From NCBI RefSeq assembly GCF_022682495.2, contig NC_071389.1, forward strand, positions 174,716,056 through 174,780,055: a stretch of 64,000 nucleotides of DNA. The letters run 5' to 3'. This document shows, piece by piece, positions 13,701-33,900 of the stretch. The first letter of the stretch is position 1, and each line of letters opens with the position of its first letter. The notes under the pieces are model-generated. The model was not told where the DNA came from and did not search any database. It saw only the letters and a list, made by a program, of their open reading frames with translations. This DNA is from Desmodus rotundus. Lineage: Eukaryota; Chordata; Mammalia; Chiroptera; Phyllostomidae. Made by a program: the position numbers and the translations under genes.

Positions 13701-16700
13701 TGACTTTGTGGCAAGGAACAACAGTGAGCTCTCAGTTCTGAAGGATGACATTTTAGAGGTAATAGAATTTTACCTTCATGCACTCTTACTAAGGTGGCTT
13801 TATTATATTCCTCTTTTGGTTTATACCTAAATCTTTCTCAAAGAAATGTTGAGATCAAGAAATACTTCTTCAGTATTACTTTATTTTACCAAGGATAGAA
13901 CATGTTATAGATAAATGCATCTGTTTAGGAGGGGAAGCTGCTTTATCCATTTGTTTTTGGTCAGTCGTTTCCTGGGTGGGGGGTGGGAGTGGAGAGAGGC
14001 GGGGAGAAGGTGGGTTTGTTGGCTTACTGTGCCCTCTTCCTACTTCCAGGCTTTATTCAATTTGGAATTAAGATTATTTATCAATTCAGATGTAGACGTA
14101 CCATAATATTTTTTTACATACATACATTTTATTTTTTATCCTTTATTGTTGTTCAGTTACAGTTCTCCCCATTTTCCCCCCATTACTCTCCCCTGCCCTA
14201 CCTACCCCCCACCTCCCACGTTCAGTCCTCTCCCCTGTTGTCTTTGTCCATGAGTGCTTTATTCATGTTCCTTGACTTGACCCTTCCCCTTCCGTCCCCC
14301 GTTATCCCCCTCACCCCCCCGCTCTGGCCACTGTCAGTTTTTACCATAATATTTTAGTAAGAGAAAACATTGCCCTTCTTTCTGTCCTAGTACCTTGGCA
14401 CAAATATACCCAGCACTGAATGAACTCATGGTTGTGGGAACAGTCCACATGACACCTGAGTATCTTTCCTTAGTTTATAACGGAATGTTCATCTTTTTAA
14501 ATTATAATGTGGGATAATCACAGCAGGTTTTGTTAAAGAAACAAAAGGACGTTTTTATACTTTTCCTTCCTTTTCCAAGGGTGGAGTCAACATGTAGACA
14601 TTTCCAAGTGAGCCATCTTAGTTATCCATGAATACTTCAGATATATTGCAAATACACGTCTGTGTTAGGTAGCATACGTCTGGGATGGGTTCATGATAGT
14701 GGTCCCATACCTGTGCTATACTAATAATTGTAACTCCTAGTGTAGTTCCTGGGAGTCATCCATCCCTCAACCTGTTTATGCTAAGTCAACTTAATAGAAG
14801 TTAAAGTTTTTTGGTCTAGGAATAAAAATTGAACTTCCTTTATGGACTGGTGTTGGTTCAGAAATGACATCTTTATTTTCTTGCCTAATGACAGATCCTT
14901 GACGATAGGAAGCAGTGGTGGAAAGTTCGAAATGCAAGTGGAGACTCTGGATTTGTGCCAAATAACATTTTGGACATTGTGAGACCTACAGAATCCGGAT
15001 TAGGGCGCACTGACCCACCGTACACACATACGATACAGGTGATTATTTTTGAGCAAAAATTAACTTTTAACAAATTTTAAAATTCATCACTCAACTAGGA
15101 TTTAAATACATTTTGTGTGTTAATCATTTTGAGAGTTAATCGGTTGTACAATTTATACAATTTTTTCCTAGGATATTTCAGGGGCAAGGTGAGAGACATA
15201 GGGATGAATTATACATATGTTTTATGGTTTAAATCTTTAGGATTTACTCAAGATGTCTGCCAGTAAATGACTGTTTCTGTGAATGCTGCTTTTTTCATTC
15301 TACAATGTTTCTGACATTTGAAGACACAGCATTTCTGCCTCCCCACTCCTCTTACTCATAGCCTTCCTGTTCATTGGCTGCTTCTTGTTAGAGGCGGCGG
15401 CGCTGAGACAGGGGCTGGAGGATCCAGCAGTTCACCTGCACCAGCCTTTGCCCTTATTCTCTTGAATGTTCTGCCCCTGGCCAACCTTGAACTTGCACTT
15501 ATCTCACCTTACAACTGAGTATTTATTTATTTTCCCCCTCTTGATTTTAATATTAAAAATGTACTTATGATATAGGTTGCATGGATCAGGTTTTCTCTTC
15601 TCGATCATCGAAAAGTTCTTGAGTCAGATTTCCAGAATTTAAGTGATTCTGGTTCTCTCATTCACCCTAACATCTGAACTCACTTGCTGTTGAAGTATGC
15701 GGATTTTTGCTCTGACAGGATCTCTGTAGAGTCTGATAGGCCAACAGAGACAGAATGGATGCACTGTCCCATGTGCAGCCTCTGCACCTGTGGTGGCTTC
15801 TTTCTCATGTCCCAGGAAGAATTCTTTTAATTTTCAGAATCTAGAGCAAAAGATTACATCTGACCACATAAATTTGAGTAGAACCTACATAGTATGTGCC
15901 GTGAAATAGTTTATTTTCACGCCGAGGCTTAGTGAAATGCAGAAAGTGCGAACCTGGGGTTGTGGTCATGCGCTGCCATGACCATTCATTTAGGTACTTC
16001 CGGCTCCTCGTGACATCCATGCCGGGTAAGGTTCTGCTCTTACCCACACCAACTTTGGCCTTGTAGCATCCAAGAATCAAACACATGTTTAAAGGGAAAA
16101 AATAGTGTACAATTTGTATGTCTTTATAACTTAAAGGGATGGCTATGGGAATTCAGTTTGCTGTGCTCATGTTTTGACTGGCCTGATGTGCATCTATATT
16201 ATGTACTTATTTCATGTTCATTGTTTGTCATTAGCTGTTGATGCCAAAGAAGGAGTTTGAGTTATTCAAGGTATGGTCTACTCCATTTGCCGTGGATTTT
16301 TGAAGTGAATTTTCTAACCTGGTTTTAATACCTTTCTCTTTCTTAAGTTCTTACTTTTCTGAGTTTGAGATGTGGTTACCTGACATAATAGAGGCTTCTG
16401 TTTGGTTTATAAATGCTAACTCTTCATGTTCTTTCCTATAGAGGTTTTGACTGAATTCCTTAAACAGTGTTAAAGGGTGTATGCTTGAAATGTGTGCCAA
16501 AAACAGTAACAGAGTATATCCCCGCTGAGCCCTGTGGACTGTTCTTAATGCTTAACTCATGGTGGGCTCTAAAAGACACTATTCACAAGTGATGTCACAG
16601 TTGCTGTATGTGAGCAGAAGCCAACAGTTTATATTTTAGGTGTTAAAAACAATTATCCCAAGTTTATTTCTAGTTGTGTGCATAGTTGCTAGAAATGGCC

Positions 16701-19700
16701 AAACTTTGATAAAATGTCTAAAATTTGCAAATAATGCAAATTGTAAGTATTCTCCCTCACCCCAAGATTTCCTGAGGAGTGTAACCTCTCTTTTCATGTT
16801 TACTGTTAGGCGTGTCTTTTTCTTCAATTTTGATTCCTGCTTTGAGCCATAGTGGTGGACTTTTCTGCTGAAAGATTGCTTCTGTTTAAAATTGAACCGT
16901 AACTATAAATACATATCACAGGTAGAGTGCGTACTTTTTGAGAACATGAAATGTTCTCCTTTTTTGAACAGAGCCTCATCTTATATTTTTGTCAGTTTTG
17001 GCATGACCAAGAAAAGTGCTCACAAGTTTCAGGAGTTTGTTTTGCTACTTTATGGTAAAATAAAAACTGTGGGGCTTGCCTGTTTGGCTTTCTCCCTTTT
17101 AAACTTTTCAACACTGCCTGACTGTCTTCTGAAAATTTCTGGATGTAACTCTGAAGATGCTGATGTATGTGGAGCTGTGTACAGAAGCTCGAGGGGTGTG
17201 TCTGTGTATGTCATTTGAGGGCCCGGGTCTTAAAAACGATCTACTTTTTTAATCACCTCCTGAAAATTTTGGGACTAAGCCCAACAAAACCACCAGATTC
17301 TTGTAAAATTTTAATAAGCAAGTTTGACCATCTGCTCTCTGCTACCCGGCATAAATATGACTGTAAAGGGATTTCTGTTCTGAAAGCCAGCACAACACGC
17401 ATGCATGCCCACACACAAAATGATTAGGTAGACTAAGATGGGAAAGAAAAAAGTCCTTGGACTTACACGTCAGTTATCCCATATCTCTACCAGTGTTGCC
17501 AGATCCCTTTATCTATAGCATCTTAACAAAAAGTCCTGCAGCTGTCTTCAGGTTGACAATAAAGCTTTGTGTGGATTCATTCCAGTGATCCAAACACCGT
17601 CACCTTACAGAACTCCACTGGATTACAAACGTGTCAAAGGCGGTTCTGTGTCATATTCATGTTCTCGTTCATTCGCACCGCAGGTATTTACGGAATGCCG
17701 GCACCTTACACGTGGTAAAAGGGAGACAGACAGCCTGGCCCTGAGCCTTCCTTCCCTGAAAGCCTGCTGTCCTTTCTGTGCTTGTGCATCAGGAACAGTG
17801 ACCCTCGCTCCCCTCAGAAACGGCCGACACACTTTTTCCCCATCTCTTCCCTCCAGTGATACCAAACTTTAGAAGAAATTTAAAGAAACTTCTTCCCAAA
17901 ACAGTTTTCGTCCCTGTGCTGCACTGCACAGTGATCCCTTATGATTCATTGCCTAAGCTTCCTTCACGCTCACAGCGAGCAGTGACACTGTACCCCGAGG
18001 TAGACGGTGCCAGTGGCCGGTGCTCATGCTGGGTGCCTGGCATGGAGTCGGCACCCCACAGATGCTGTTCATTTAATGCCCACCACCGCCTTAAGGAGGA
18101 GCACATTTAATATCCGAGGAAACGAAGGCACAGGGAAGTCACTCGCCCACAGTTGTGTGCAGCCAGGACCGGGACCCAGGCCTGCAGAATGCTCCGACAG
18201 CCCAGGCTCTGAGGGACTCAGCTAGTATGGGAGCAGTTCTTGGAAAAGACTGCCCTCTCATTTTGTATACACATGTGGTTTTTCGCTGTGTGAATGCTTA
18301 AAGGGATACTTTCTTAGAATAGCTTTACCATGCATTGTACCGTGATAAAGGTCGATCTGATTAATCACCATCCTTGGAATTGGATTTTTTTGCCTTGTGC
18401 ATCTGTTTTTTGGATTTTGGTTATTTAATTTTTCATAATTTAGGGAAATAATCCCAATCATGTAATTCACTTAAGGTATAGACATTTTGTGAATGGTGGG
18501 AATAAGGGAATTAGGTGTAAACTATTATCCTGGGGCACCTATGTCACCCAGTGACTCTTATCTTCTTACCCTGTGTCGCCTTCCTGTAAAGAAGCAGCGT
18601 ATACAAACGGTGGCAGCTCCCGCAGAAGGAGCAGCCCCTGCCTGTTGTTCACACTCTTCCATTAGAGATTGTCTCTTGATGGCAGGGATGCTAGTGCCTG
18701 GACCAGTGGTGAAGAGGTGTTGAATTGCCACCTGATGTCCCTGAGAATCAGCCTATTTAATATCCTCACCTTTGGAGTGATTTTTAACAGCTTGGTAAAG
18801 ACAGCCATTCCCACCTAATGTGTTTCCCCTGCGGCTTTGCCAAAGTTATAAAAATAAAAGGGAGGGAGCGAAAAAAGAATTTATGAAAGATACGGAACAT
18901 AAAAAATACTGACTGAAACCACAGGGAAAGGAAATAAATGCGTATGAGAGATTATGGAGAAATGAAGGTGAATGGCGTATCTTCTGATAAAAATATTGTT
19001 GTAGAACACAGCAGGGCTTCGTAGTATTTTAGCTGTGACGGATGGATGTCCAGGGTGCTTTGTCCCCACCTGAAATCTACGTGCTATGTCCAATTTCCCA
19101 TATTTCTTTGGACTCGATTCCCAGATTTCTGGCTCTGTGACTGCTCATCTGCTAGAGTTCCCCTCGTGCCCATAGAGATTCCCATGCTGCATGTTTGCCA
19201 AGAGCAGAAACCAGTCCCTCATTATTTCAGATACACTCAAAGGTTTCATTAAAGAAGTCTTACATTCACTATTAATAAGTAAGTATGTGCTTATTATTAT
19301 TATAGGTATTCTGCCTTTATCAAGATACAGATCATTATGAGTGGATGTTATGGTCCTGTGAATGCAATAGAAATTCTCTTGTCTTCTCTATTTCTTAGCA
19401 CTAAGATGTTATGATACTGTGGGAAAAGCCCCAGTGTAGGTATTGGTAGACCCGGATTCTAGTCCTGGTTCTGCCAGAACTAGCTGTGTGACCTTTAAGA
19501 AAGCGTTTTATTTTTCTGTGCTCCAGTGTGCACCGCTCTGAAATGGAAGGGGTCAGTTGATCTCTACAATTCACTCTAGATATGAGACGATGTTATTTTC
19601 TATATAATGTGTAAATAGTCCTAAATTAAAAGTGGAACGATTTTCCACAGGTAACTACTAAACCACCAGCTCTACTAATTTCATGCTATGAATGTTCTGA

Positions 19701-21870
19701 ATGCTCTTTTTCAAGCTCAATCCAGACATTCAGGTACTGCTGGGCAGAGAGTGACCACTTCAGTGAAATGCCTTCAGGTTCATTCCAGCAGATCAACTGC
19801 TAATCTTCAGTTATTTAAGAACATTTTAAAATAAGCTCAGAGCACTCTGCTCATCTGTTAATTAGAGGTGTGGTTTTCAGACAAGGATCGTTACTTTTAT
19901 GTTGCCTCACATGGTGACAAAGAAATTCTATTTATCTGGATGGCGGTGGGCGAAAGAAAGTTTGCAGTTGTGAGTACACAAAACAGAGTTTATTCTTGTA
20001 TTGTCTGTCACTTATTGTATTATTTATTTGTGTTACAACTATAAACCTACCTTCGCCCACCCCTGTATATAAACATGTATACAAATCGCTGCCCAATGTG
20101 AACATGTACAGAATTACAAAGTTTCCTGTTTAGACGGCTTGCAAATTCAAAACTAAAGCTCACTGAAACATAGATGTGTATTTCCTTTTGTGAAGTCAAC
20201 TTTATAGAAAGTTTAATGTACTCTGTGTATTTCCTTTATCACCTGAAAGAATAGGGTGAACCTGTACTTAATATTTTAAAAACACAGTATTCTAATACAC
20301 AAATAGTTACGGAAATACTCTATACTGTTAACACTGTCCTGTGAGTCTATATAATTAGTTTTCCATGGCTAGATAAGAGTGATGGAAATTAATTATATAT
20401 TTACAAGCTTCCTCACTGGTTGATTTGTGGGCATGTAATTTTACTGTCAAAAGCTAATTTGCTAACATTTTCTGATATTTGATGTGAATTATGATTGATA
20501 TTATTTTAGTTCCATCTTCTGTGTTAATTTTTTCATTTGATGTGATTTGCTCCATTTTCCTAATAGCAATTACTTGGTGAGCTGTCAGAGGTAACCCACA
20601 TTTCTTCCCTTGTGGCACTTCTTTTTAATATAATTTTTTGTATTCAATCTCTGGACTTAACACCCTCCAAATGTCCCAACTGTGCCTATTTTTCACTGCA
20701 GAGTCCCAAAGAGACCAAATTTAGACGAAAAATGTGTAAGTTAAGTTTTTAAGAACAGTTCAGTTTTAATGGTTTCGTTGGGCTTGCTTGCATAATTTCC
20801 CCATGAAGCAGTGTCTTGCATGAATCAGGAGCTTATCTCTAAATGACTGTCTTTAATCCTAGAGAATTTTTACCAAGCTTTAGCGGCTGAAGAAAAGTGA
20901 CTCATTCAGACTTAATTATCAATAGGAATGTAAATTTTCCTTGGATGTTAGTAATTCTGACTTATTATAGAGAAAAAGATTTTGTCTTAAACAGAGTTTT
21001 ATAATATATTTGTGGGAGACGAAAGGCAAAGTCGGGAAGTGACAGTTGTGGTGTAAAAATAGGTCACATCCAGCTGACCAGTCATCACAGTTTGCTCTTA
21101 ACTGAAGGCTTTGTAGGGACAGGGCCTTTGGTGCTAATAATGAGCCATTCCTGGGCGTACTGGGGAGAGTTAAGATTTCTTTTTTGGCTTTGACATTTCA
21201 GGGCCCTGGGTGCAGGAGAAGAAAGTACAAGGTCCAGTTCTGCTTCTCAGAACTTCCCGTACATTGAGGGGACATTGGAGTCACCGGTTCTCTACTTCCA
21301 ACCAAAAGTAGCAGCGAGACAGAAATACTGAATGGAAGGGCAGTGTGCTGGGTGACAGGGAAGGGGCAGGGGAGAAGACAGGGAGGGGCACCGAAATGTG
21401 GATTCAAGGGTCAAAGTGATTCTGTTTCCTCCACACTGAGAATGACAAGTCAGTTTCTAAAGGGAAGCTGACTTGGTTGTCATTTCAGAAGAGGGAGTAA
21501 TGATTTGAGGAAGGCATTTTCCCCCCTTTGTACTTCAGGGGTTGGAAGCTTGAGGCAGGAACAGAGGATCAAAAAAAGGGGAAAATATGCAAGTAAATAA
21601 AATTTATGGTGTAATTTATGAAACAATTTTCATATGATTTCTCTGTACCTTAATCAAAGATGCAGATAGATAGGTAGATAGATGATAGATAGATAGATAG
21701 ATAGATGGATAGATGGATGGATGGATGGATGGATGGATGGATGGATGGATGGATAGATGGATGGATGGATGGATGGATGGATAGATAGAAAAATAGATAG
21801 ATAGATAGATAGGTAGATAGATAGATAGATGATGGATGGATGGATGGATGGATGGATAGATGGATGGATG

Positions 21871-21901
<31 letters not shown>

Positions 21902-24900
21902 GATGGATGGATGGATGGATGGATGGATGGATGGATAGATGGATGGATGGATAGATAGATAGATAGATAGATAGATACAGGGAGAAATACTTAAGCCTAG
22001 GGTTCTGTTAGGTTACGCTGAGAAAGTTGCAGTACCCAGCAAGGACAGGAGAACAAAAGGAGGCCCCAAGGATCTGGGGGGCCTGTCTGTGACAGTAAGA
22101 CACGGTGTGTTCAGTTTTTCACAGTATTATTTGATGGACAGCAACACACTGATTGCTCTTGTTTTCATGAAAACAGGAAATATGAATCATATCATGCAGT
22201 GCTGAGCTGATAGCATTTTTTTGTTAGTTTAAGCTTTAAAAACAGCAATTTAAACTCTGACATTTTTGAAATCCTATTGTGAGAATTCACTAACCCTTCA
22301 TGTAATTATGTGCAAAAGACATTCCTGTCAAGGAACATTGCATATATTTTAATCAGATGACTTTGGTGTGTGCTAAGTATTACGTTTTGGTGATGTTTGC
22401 TGTATTTTGATTGCTTTAAATATGTTATTGGCCCAAATATAGGAACATTGTTTGGTGGGGAGTAATCATAGTAATAAAATAAACTTTTATTTAATATATT
22501 AGAAGTCTTTCTAGGCCTTGAATGGTGAGGGGTCAGCAAGTTCTGCTTCTCTCCCATCCAGCTCCATTGCTTGCTCCATGAATCCCAGCCCCCTGTTCCT
22601 TCCCTTCCCTCCTGCCTCTCCTTCCTCTCCTTCCTCCTTCCAATACTTAGCAACATTATAAACACTTCTCTGGTTCTGCTTTCATCCTTGCTTTAGACTC
22701 TTCCCACCTCCTCCACCCATTGGCTGCTGAGTGGTAACTTTTAAAGAGACAGCAGAAAAGAACCCGGATCCTGCGCACCTGGTTTCCACAGGTGTTACTC
22801 AGTTGCTGTGAAGGCGACTATGATGATGGTTGCTGTGTTGTTTTTGAGCAATGATTTAATTAAACCTGGTATTTGTGTGTGGTGTTTATGTTTTTGATCT
22901 CTGTGGAAATTGGGGAGGCCTCGTTTAAACTCACCATTATCTTATATTTGGGCCAATTTAGAAATTAAAGATAAATAGTACTATTCTAACCAAAGGACCA
23001 GATTAACAAAAGGCCTGCTTTTTGCATTTTATCTGCTAATTATGGACTTAGAATAACTAAAATTGTGCGAGTGCAGTATCTAAACTTTACTCAAATTGTA
23101 AGTCCATTGCTCTGAATCTATGACTCTTCCAAAAAAAAGTGCCTTTTGAGAATTTGGAACTTGTTATAAGTGCAGTTTTCTATTAGTTAAAATTACTGTG
23201 TTTAAAGTTTTAACTTTTGTGTGTAGTTTAAGAGGGAATATACATAAATACTATTTTATAATGTCCTGTAATGATTTAATTAAATAATTGAAAGTTATTG
23301 TGTATTCTGTCATATCCACCTTTTTAAATACAAATCCCCACACAAACTTTTTTCTAATATATGTTTTTGAGTTTTAATCGCCATTGTTTACTTAGACCAT
23401 ACCATTACCCTCGCCACTATCCATCCGCAGCACCCCCACTTTAACAAGGGAATATCTGATGTTAATAAATTAGCATTAGGATGATGGCACAAAGGATTAT
23501 GACTTGAATAAATTACCATTTTAAAATTACTTGTTTACTATCAAGCAAAGTCTTTTTATCAACTGAAATATTGCTTGTCTTCTTAACAAATTACTTAGAA
23601 ACAATATTAAACATTTTTCAATATATCATACATTTAAAGTAAGGAATAAGTAATGCTTAATGATATTAGTATTTAGGTTTTCAGTGCAATTAGAAGTTTT
23701 TATTCATGGAAATTATAAAATAATCAGAAATCTTTTGACCTACCTTGGTTGTGTGTGATTCCAAGTTCAAATTTAGTTTTCTTGACATTTGCTACTGTTA
23801 TTAACACTACTATTTGCTATTGGTATATCCTTTTTACTCCTTAATTTACATTTTGATTTTGAACAAATGCATAGAATATTTAAAACTCGATTTCTAATGA
23901 TTGTTATACCATATAGGATTGGAGATGTACATGTATGTATGTGTACACATACATACATAAATTTGCTATGGATTGCAAGTAAGGTTACGGATAGCTAAAA
24001 ATGTACTGTCAAAGTATAATTTCTTTTTCCTAGGCTAGTTTATATTTTTACAATTTTAAATTAATTGTTTATCTTTTTATAGAAACAAAGGATGGAGTAT
24101 GGTCCAAGACCAACTGACCCTCCCTCTGCTCCATCTCCTCCTCCAACACCGATTCCTGTTCCTGTCCCCCTCCCGCCAACTACGCCAGCACCTGTTCCTG
24201 TGTCCAAGGTCCCAGCGAACGTGACCCGTCAGAACAGCAGCTCCAGTGACAGCGGTGGCAGTATTGTGCGAGATAGCCAGAGACACAAACAACTTCCTGT
24301 GGACCGTAAGTTTTCGGGGGTGGCAAAGACCAGCACCCACCTTCAAAAAAAGAAAAAAAAAACAAATCACAGTTTGTTCTTCAAATTAAAAGCGCTACTA
24401 AGTAAAATATTGTTTATTATCAGCCTTGCTGTTACTAAATATTATTAATATGAATAATAGTCCTTTATACTTGCATGATACTTGACCGAGTGCAAAGACC
24501 ACCTAGTTTCTATCCTCCAAGTAACTCTGAGAAGCAGGAAGTTTCCTCTGTTCTCCAGTGTGTGCATTTCTACACATACCCCAGCATATCGTGGTGGCTG
24601 CATGAAGACTCTGGCGCTGCACACAGCTGAGTGTGCATAGTGACATATGCTTACTGGCTGTGGGACCTTTAACAATTTAATAAGCCTCTACACTTCAGTG
24701 TCAGAAAGGTTGGGGGGATAATGGTTTCTGTGTCACAGGATGATTATGAAGATTCGAAGGTAATGCACACACAGCATTTAGATCCGTTGTTTCCGGTCAG
24801 GGTGCTCTTCTCCCTCTTCCCCCAGGGACATTTGGTATTGTCTGGAGACATACTTTGATCACAGCCAGGTAGATGCTAATGACATCTAATGCAGTCAGTA

Positions 24901-30900: not shown

Positions 30901-33900
30901 GATGAGCAGAGAGCATCAACAACCCGGTCGGGCTTTATATCCATGAATTTAACATGAGATCAGTCAGCAGTGTCGTGTTATACTCAGTGTGCAGGTACAG
31001 CCCAGAGTAAGCAGAAAGGTACATTGAACAAGGGCTGGGGTTTTGCCAAATGAGTACAATGAAGAGAGAAGACAAGGTAGGGAGTGGTTTTAATAATTGA
31101 TCATGGAATTTATACTGAGTGGGGATGAAAGTGAGGGAAGATGGTTGGAACACTAGTTCCAGTAACCCTTCCACCCCATAGAAGTCCTATGGGTTATTGG
31201 CACTGGGGTTCTGGAGGGAGAGCCCCATCTGGGGTTAGGAGTTCTCAGAAGTAACCTACTCCGTGTCGGTATGCAGGAAGGAAATCCCAGATGGAGGAGG
31301 TGCAGGATGAGCTCATCCACAGACTGACCATTGGCCGGAGCGCCGCCCAGAAGAAGTTCCACGTGCCACGGCAGAACGTGCCAGTTGTCAACATCACTTA
31401 CGAGTCCACGCCAGAGGACGTGAAGACGTGGCTACAGTCGAAGGGGTTCAACCCTGTGTGAGTCTCTCTGGGAGTACTTCACAGTGTTGTGTGCAAACAC
31501 GCATCGTTTGCAGTTGGGCCACTGCGATGTCACGAATGACTCTTTAGAAACGTGAGAGCCCACACTGCCTGGTTCATGCTCAGGAAATGAGTGTAGCTAT
31601 AAACAAGAGTTGGAAGAAGCAGAAGTTCTTTCCTGGCACTTCGTTCTCTAAATGGTGGTGCCTGTTCGTCATCAGTCCCCTCAGTGAACTGTCAGCAGCT
31701 TTGAGACTGGTAGCTTTCTGTCTCCCTCCTCAGGTCCCACAGCACAGGGCGGGTCTCAGCGAGACTCCCCAAACCACGCAGGACATGTAGCAGACCCCCT
31801 CCTTCTGCTGAAGGATAGAGATTCCAGGCACATAAAGAATAGATAATACCTACCATAGGACATAGTCTGATAGGGCTTTTCCTTTGGTAAGCCCATTGTG
31901 AAGTTTCTGGTTTACCTGTAGTTTTGTTACTAGCTTATGTTTTTTTAAAAGCCTCTCTCCACTTGGTTTTAGTTGAGTCTTTATACACCCTCATTTTTAA
32001 ATTTCTTTTATTATTTATGTATTTATTTCATCTTCACCCAAGCACATTTTTTTCATTGCTTTTAGAGAGAGAGAAAGAGGGGAAGAAAGAGGAGAGAAAC
32101 ATTGATGAGAAACATTGATGTGAGAGAGAAACATCAGTCAGTTGCCTCTTGTACTCCCCGCCCCTGAACCGGGTACTCAACCCACAACCCGGGCTTGTGC
32201 CCTGACTGGGAATCAAACCTGAGACCTTTTGGTTCATGGGACAGTGCCCAACCAACTGAGCCACACTGGCTAGGGCCATTGTTAAATTTTTTTTCAATTA
32301 CAGTTGATACTCAATACTGTTTTGATTAGTTTCGGGTATATAGCACAGTGATTGGACAATCATGTACTTTATGAAGTGACCCCCCAATATTCCCAGTCCC
32401 CCATGGGCACCATACATGGTGATCACGGTATTATTGACTGTGCTCCCTACGCTGTACTTCACATCCCTGTGACTGTTTTGTAACTGCCAGTCTGTACGTT
32501 TCAATCTCGTCACCCTTTCACCCAGCCCCCCAACCAACCATCAGTCTGATCTCTGTGTCTATGAGTCTGTCTTTTATTCGTTTGTTCGTTTATATTGTTC
32601 TTTAGGTTCTACATATAAGTGAATTCATTTGTCTTCCCCTGACTGACTTATTTCACTGAGCGTAATGCCCTCTAGGTGCCCCCATGCTGTAGCAAATGAT
32701 AAGATTTCATTCTTTTTTATGGCCACTTACTATTCATATTTTTGGTATTTTTTCTTCTTAAAGAAGACCCTTACTTAACCTTTGCTGTAATACTGGTTTG
32801 GCGATGGTGACGATGGATCCTTTCAGCTTCTGTGTTTTGACCCTATGAACTGTTTGACCGCTACGTATTCAAGAGAACTTGAATATCATAAACTCACTTG
32901 CCCAGCGTGACTGAAAAGCGATCCCCACTGGGGAGTCAATTACCTGGTTACTAGAAAGTTCTCTCTTCTTCTTTTGAAACACCAAGTTCCAAGGAAATGG
33001 TCCTAAACAGTAATGACACTACACTCCGTTGGCCCCTTTCTGAAGCCTCATAATCATCTTAGCTGGCCTCAGGGTCATCACATGAGCGTCCCTGGTCATT
33101 GCCCTGGCCGAGCGCTGTAGCACTGTTTTATGAGTTCCAGGGTACGGAACACTTAGAAAAGACGTTAGAGCAGAACCAGAAATTTGTTTTTGTAGACAGT
33201 ATTTCTAATGCTTTCTTTCTTTTCTCTTCCTTTTGTTTTTTCAGGACTGTCAATAGTCTTGGAGTATTAAATGGTGCACAACTTTTCTCTCTCAATAAAG
33301 ATGAACTGAAGACAGTCTGCCCTGAGGGGGCCAGAGTCTTTAACCAAATCACCGTGCAGAAAGCTGCATTAGAGGTACGACTTGCCAAGCGAAGGTGGTG
33401 CTCCGTATTTGTCCAGAGCACGGCCTGCTCACCGAAAGCTCCAGTCACCTGTTTATGTCCATACTGGTCAGCTTCCCCTTCCTGCGGAGCTGAACGAATT
33501 TGATTCAGCTTTCGTAGTCACTGGAGACCGTTAGTGACCACTTGGAGGGAGATTAATTTCTTATAAATGCTCAGGCATGAAGCTTGGACATATACTTTGG
33601 ACATTTAATGAAAACCTAATGTTCCCATTTCATATGCATTAGCTATTTCCATAGGAATTTTCATTCTGACATAGTAAAGGACATTCACCTCTGTGAGTAA
33701 ATGCCTTAAGAGGTCGGAACTCTTGCCTGTTCTTAATATTTAGTTTGGAGATTCTAGTAGGTTAGAGGTTATAAGGTCTTAAAACCCTAGTGGTATGTCT
33801 TAGGCCTGGTTATACATATAAATACAAGGGGGGACCATAAAAACCCAGAATTCGTTTATAAAAAGTTGTGTATTTATTCTTCATGTTTAGACTTCAGTCA

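Follow-up and report, generated by a model that had tools for sequence, protein, structure and literature searches.

Two candidate alternative cassette microexons between the SH3 domain and the proline-rich linker of EPS8, encoding peptides conserved among jawed vertebrates

Does the intron that follows the SH3 domain of EPS8 contain additional coding sequence, and what might such sequence contribute to the protein? The question is raised by a 64,000-nucleotide stretch of the Desmodus rotundus genome (contig NC_071389.1; hereafter the window), in which a first-pass annotation had proposed that two very short segments of a single EPS8 intron are exons. Our best overall explanation, which we consider probable, is that the segments at 16235-16270 (M1) and 20567-20590 (M2) are two alternative EPS8 cassette microexons, present since at least the ancestor of the jawed vertebrates, and that they most likely act as a docking switch at the hinge that joins the SH3 domain to the proline-rich linker. 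Jawed vertebrates are more than 400 million years old.

Comparison by tblastn with the human EPS8 protein places EPS8 exons from 1560 to 35802 on the + strand of the window, and further upstream exons lie in the 20 kb preceding it. M1 and M2 occupy an intron of 9,044 bases (15039-24082) between the exon that ends the SH3 domain and the exon that encodes the proline-rich linker (Table 1). M1 is preceded by ...CATTAG and followed by GTATGG, M2 is preceded by ...CTAATAG and followed by GTAACC, and both are in phase 0 between ...THTIQ at the exon end (15038) and KQRMEY at the next exon start (24083). The coordinates, borders, phase and translations of the two stop-free AG/GT segments given in the first-pass annotation (36 and 24 nt) were all reproduced, and its placement of the insert between the SH3 domain and the proline-rich linker agrees both with the phase-0 fit and with the position of the insert in the annotated proteins of other vertebrates. 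The peptides KKEFE, FELFK and QLLGEL have no second occurrence in the six frames of the window. An AGAT-type tetranucleotide array of 314 bases (21664-21977; 79.2 copies, 91% matches) lies between M2 and the proline-rich exon.

Table 1. Features of the EPS8 locus discussed in the text, in positions of the window.
Feature	Position	Strand	Basis
EPS8 exon with second half of SH3 domain and tail ...PPYTHTIQ, phase-0 end	14895..15038	+	tblastn with human EPS8; SH3 by Pfam on orthologue P0001
Candidate microexon M1, 36 nt, phase 0, 12 residues	16235..16270	+	Borders, frame, splice score, orthologue conservation
UGC at -19 from the M2 acceptor, possible SRRM3/4-type element	20548..20550	+	Motif scan; not specific, as a UGC also precedes the constitutive SH3 exon, at -13
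Candidate microexon M2, 24 nt, phase 0, QLLGELSE	20567..20590	+	Borders, frame, splice score, orthologue conservation
EPS8 exon KQRMEY... with proline-rich linker, phase-0 start, phase-1 end	24083..24305	+	tblastn with human EPS8
EPS8 exon, start of actin-binding C-terminal region (helix H1)	31277..31457	+	tblastn; region and H1 from passages of PMC2879411

The relationship of the insert to other EPS8 proteins was examined with the joined bat protein as query, scored from the end of the SH3 domain through the insert into the beginning of the linker, which matched 241 proteins, 120 of them listed. A query with the catshark protein gave 63 proteins and added more sharks and a chimaera, and a search for short fragments that carry the insert contributed one fish protein from two candidates. 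In all, 144 EPS8 proteins were compared; the database is clustered at 90% identity, such that the counts are of representatives, and some species are present with several isoforms. Species names are those given by the search, and clades were assigned by us from the names. Both pieces are present in 98 proteins, M1 only in 10, M2 only in two and neither in 34, a split that does not represent the frequency of inclusion, since the queries contained the insert and insert-bearing proteins are over-represented. P0144 begins inside M1 and was counted as having both pieces, and P0018 ends just after M1 and was counted as M1 only. In the 34 proteins with neither piece the residues that flank the insert are joined directly.

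The same peptides recur, in frame and at the corresponding position, in isoform X4 of Phyllostomus discolor, in an owl (Athene), in frogs (Lithobates, Hyperolius and Gastrophryne), in gar, reedfish, sturgeon, zebrafish and further fishes, and among cartilaginous fishes in catshark and skate. The expectation that frame and encoded sequence would be conserved in other vertebrates was thus borne out in annotated coding sequence, the comparison being one of proteins and not of splice sites. Entries with M1 only include Rhinolophus, marmoset, gundi, dugong, a desman, great white shark, Callorhinchus and the hedgehog P0018, and those with M2 only are giant panda and horse. Because M1-only and M2-only proteins both exist, each piece can be spliced in or out separately, and the first-pass proposal of a joint 20-residue insert stands only in part: 20 residues are possible, but the pieces are separable (10 and two of the 144 have M1 only and M2 only, respectively), to give 8, 12 or 20 residues. 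No lamprey or invertebrate EPS8 with the insert was present among the 63 matches to the catshark query, all of which have jawed-vertebrate names; this search, which depended on five-residue words in common and had a length limit, is not evidence of absence.

By lineage, both pieces are present in 86 of 87 ray-finned fish rows, the remaining row having M1, whereas 21 of the 31 mammal-named rows among the matches listed (120 of 241) have neither. The only mammalian cluster representative with both pieces is P0001 from Phyllostomus discolor, although clustering at 90% identity hides members. This distribution, together with the weak acceptor of M1, would be expected if these were ancient exons that are used routinely in fish but only rarely in mammals, where they are now dying and are kept by drift. 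Skipping is not confined to mammals, however, and the 34 proteins without either piece comprise 21 with mammalian names, nine designated 'lgn', three sharks (P0123, Heptranchias; P0124, Mustelus; P0125, Pristiophorus) and a newt (P0143, Lissotriton). The presence of skipping in sharks and a newt argues that it is old and no mammalian novelty. Moreover, the bat retains the frame, the two splice sites of each segment and the full 20 residues, which are identical to those of catshark P0049. We therefore regard decay in mammals as unlikely. All nine 'lgn' rows lack the insert; they derive from contigs of 1.2-4.2 kb and are probably transcripts, and like the 21 mammal-named rows they weigh against the cassette interpretation.

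Cartilaginous fishes and mammals alike have annotated forms with inserted residues and annotated forms that skip them, and the two exons behave as separate cassettes. Annotated isoforms may rest partly on models, and the evidence is at the protein level. A model artefact does not explain the near-identity of shark and bat, found in the bat in DNA whose splice-site pairs score highest in the intron. Two of the annotated isoforms are from bats and match M1 and M2 in frame and place: P0001 (Phyllostomus discolor X4) carries M1 and M2 and matches the 75-residue query region at 97% identity, and P0002 (Rhinolophus sinicus X2) has M1. Insert-bearing isoforms are thus already in public protein databases.

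What the insert might do is suggested by its position. If one or both microexons are included, the stretch that joins the SH3 domain to the proline-rich linker would gain 12, 8 or 20 residues, and the two together would encode a short amphipathic helix with a core of about 17 residues, probably disordered alone and folding upon docking, whether to a partner or to EPS8 itself. Such a helix could act as a splice-controlled docking switch, altering the engagement of the SH3 domain (with ABI1) and of the proline-rich stretch (with IRSp53), and in this way could change actin capping and bundling output in a restricted set of cells. We infer the helix, its docking, its effect on partners and the cell type; a docking helix at the hinge is favoured because the segment adjoins a domain that binds partners, because the inhibition of capping is lifted by ABI1 and because IRSp53 binds the proline-rich region. 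Passages of PMC2879411 describe capping by full-length Eps8 as inhibited, with the inhibition relieved by ABI1 binding, and passages of PMC3140970 identify the Eps8 proline-rich region as the minimal region that binds the IRSp53 SH3 domain.

The predicted helix is of low confidence. AlphaFold models a helix at 613-630 when the bat protein is first and at 613-625 when the catshark protein is first, with pLDDT of about 45-53, and neither model has confident packing (pTM 0.33 and 0.32). The helical hydrophobic moment of the 17-residue core is 0.47, compared with a shuffle mean of 0.22 (p = 0.027), and the moments of the whole 20-mer (p = 0.080) and of the core with KQRMEY (p = 0.14) are not significant. 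The amphipathic character of the insert is only moderate: the earlier suggestion of an amphipathic helix is favoured by the modelled helix and by the core, and is weakened by the low pLDDT and by the values for the longer segments. A helix modelled with low confidence fits a segment that folds on binding better than one that forms a stable domain. No solved chain with sequence similarity to the hinge plus insert (60 residues) was found at E values up to 10.

Like the helix proposed for the insert, the EPS8 capping helix H1, assigned to exon 31277-31457, is a short amphipathic helix of the same protein; it has no significant sequence similarity to the insert, the score of 15 being attained by 0.67 of shuffles. 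Nor does the insert match any other part of EPS8 significantly.

A different helical role would be to tie EPS8 to a focal-adhesion partner, such as the C-terminal targeting domain of FAK, through a motif resembling the LD motifs. Paxillin-type LD motifs have the consensus L/V-D/E-x-L/M-L/M-x-x-L. The FKQLLGEL sequence has the spacing phi-x-x-L-L-x-x-L of these motifs, but begins with F and K where the consensus has L/V and D/E, and so departs from the motif. Eps8 does bind the focal-adhesion-targeting region of FAK, according to passages of PMC4265741, although these speak of 97 and 68 kDa forms of Eps8 and make no mention of an insert. We consider this alternative quite improbable.

The strength of constraint bears on whether the encoded sequence matters at all. 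In an alignment of 43 EPS8 proteins chosen by hand from 143, with identity counted over ungapped rows, M1 and M2 have mean column identities of 0.93 and 0.95, compared with 0.65 for the SH3 tail that precedes them and 0.67 for the stretch that follows; the M1 value is slightly lowered by partial misalignment of the two M2-only rows. The SH3 domain and the N-terminal PTB stretch in the same alignment have values of 0.82 and 0.86, and the insert ranks 9th among 824 twenty-residue windows. Just three versions of M1 are seen in 107 matched rows (L/M at position 2 and L/I at position 10), and M2 varies by S/N in 100 matched rows, with one entry that has a terminal Q. The exact 20 residues of the bat are present in 10 of the 144 proteins, including catshark (P0049), skate, bamboo shark, owl, reedfish and sturgeon. 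If the insert were a pure spacer that lengthens the hinge irrespective of its sequence, as its location in a linker and its low-confidence structure prediction might suggest, it would be expected to drift; it is instead conserved to a much greater degree than the flanking linker, and a simple spacer role is very unlikely.

The first-pass annotation had considered a chance match improbable from frame and AG/GT borders, an argument in need of correction: 315 segments within 15039-24082 (9-51 nt, a multiple of three, stop-free and bounded by AG..GT) pass the same filter, and frame and borders are therefore weak evidence by themselves. Ranked by summed splice-site score, M2 is first and M1 second of the 315, and no third segment among these equals the pair in both respects, taking as thresholds the lower of their two acceptor scores and the lower of their two donor scores. 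Relative to nine constitutive EPS8 exons scored, both M2 splice sites are within range; the M1 acceptor (1.6) is below the weakest (2.3), whereas its donor (4.6) is the strongest. That M1 and M2 are decoy AG..GT stretches of an AT-rich intron, of which those 315 segments offer a ready supply, is almost certainly wrong, and is rejected because annotated EPS8 proteins throughout the jawed vertebrates carry these peptides at the corresponding place.

The two candidate cassette microexons can be compared with the neural microexons of the SRRM3/4 programme. As in that programme, M1 and M2 are very short, have lengths that are multiples of three, are alternative and conserved in vertebrates, and lie beside an interaction domain without breaking it. 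They differ in that M1, at 36 nt, exceeds definitions of 3-27 or 30 nt, and in that only M2 has a UGC within 20 nt of its acceptor. With respect to a general description of cassette microexons, both have canonical AG/GT borders and in-frame lengths; M2 (24 nt) is within the limits of 27-30 nt and of 51 nt, and M1 is only within that of 51 nt. All four combinations of inclusion and skipping are seen at the level of annotated proteins (98, 10, 2 and 34 of 144), and conservation among vertebrates is at the protein level and extends across the jawed vertebrates.

We scanned for RBFOX, PTB and UGC motifs around M1 and M2. The UGC nearest to the M1 acceptor is at -46, and a UGC is also found near the constitutive SH3 exon, at -13, such that the scan does not discriminate between optional and constitutive exons. 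A UGC near the acceptor marks Srrm4-regulated exons (passages of PMC3464207), and M2 could be one of these; Eps8 is not named in the main text of that paper. Photoreceptors and hair cells have Srrm3/4 programmes, according to a review of sensory neurons (passages of PMC10987577) in which eps8 does not occur.

Among the matches listed in a search of the open literature, with subscription journals and supplementary tables outside its scope, we found no paper on an EPS8 microexon; papers that contained both search words were judged on the title and the start of the abstract. Splicing databases or supplementary lists may already contain these events. A bolder and more tentative proposal, which we regard as possible but would not favour, is that the two pieces form an independently spliced helical switch of jawed-vertebrate age at the SH3/proline-rich hinge that sets the capping, bundling or inactive state of EPS8 in particular sensory or neural cells, and of which no description was found among those literature matches.

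Deeply conserved microexons can remain outside the working model of a well-studied protein. The 822-residue human form of EPS8 presumably lacks the insert, and a near-invariant optional segment beside the SH3 domain is therefore probably absent from assays that use the 821/822-residue form. EPS8 controls actin capping and bundling (passages of PMC2879411 and PMC3140970), and the assay constructs are numbered on the 821-residue mouse protein (passages of PMC2879411). Human EPS8 is given as 822 residues in passages of PMC4022326, which also report EPS8 as a causal gene for recessive deafness. If the insert alters binding or autoinhibition, cell-type-specific behaviour of EPS8 would be directly testable, and variants in the intron that contains M1 and M2 would be worth a look in deafness families.

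Among the small differences between entries, we note, in P0141 (Anableps) and P0136 (Sphaeramia), one extra Q between M1 and M2 and one K missing after M2; from the protein sequences, these one-codon changes look like acceptor shifts of the NAGNAG type at the microexon borders in fishes. The EPS8 model of Erinaceus europaeus (P0018) ends with FKV straight after M1, which may reflect a gene-model artefact or a transcript that ends in the intron following M1. In the bat, reading through past M1 yields 10 residues and then a stop.
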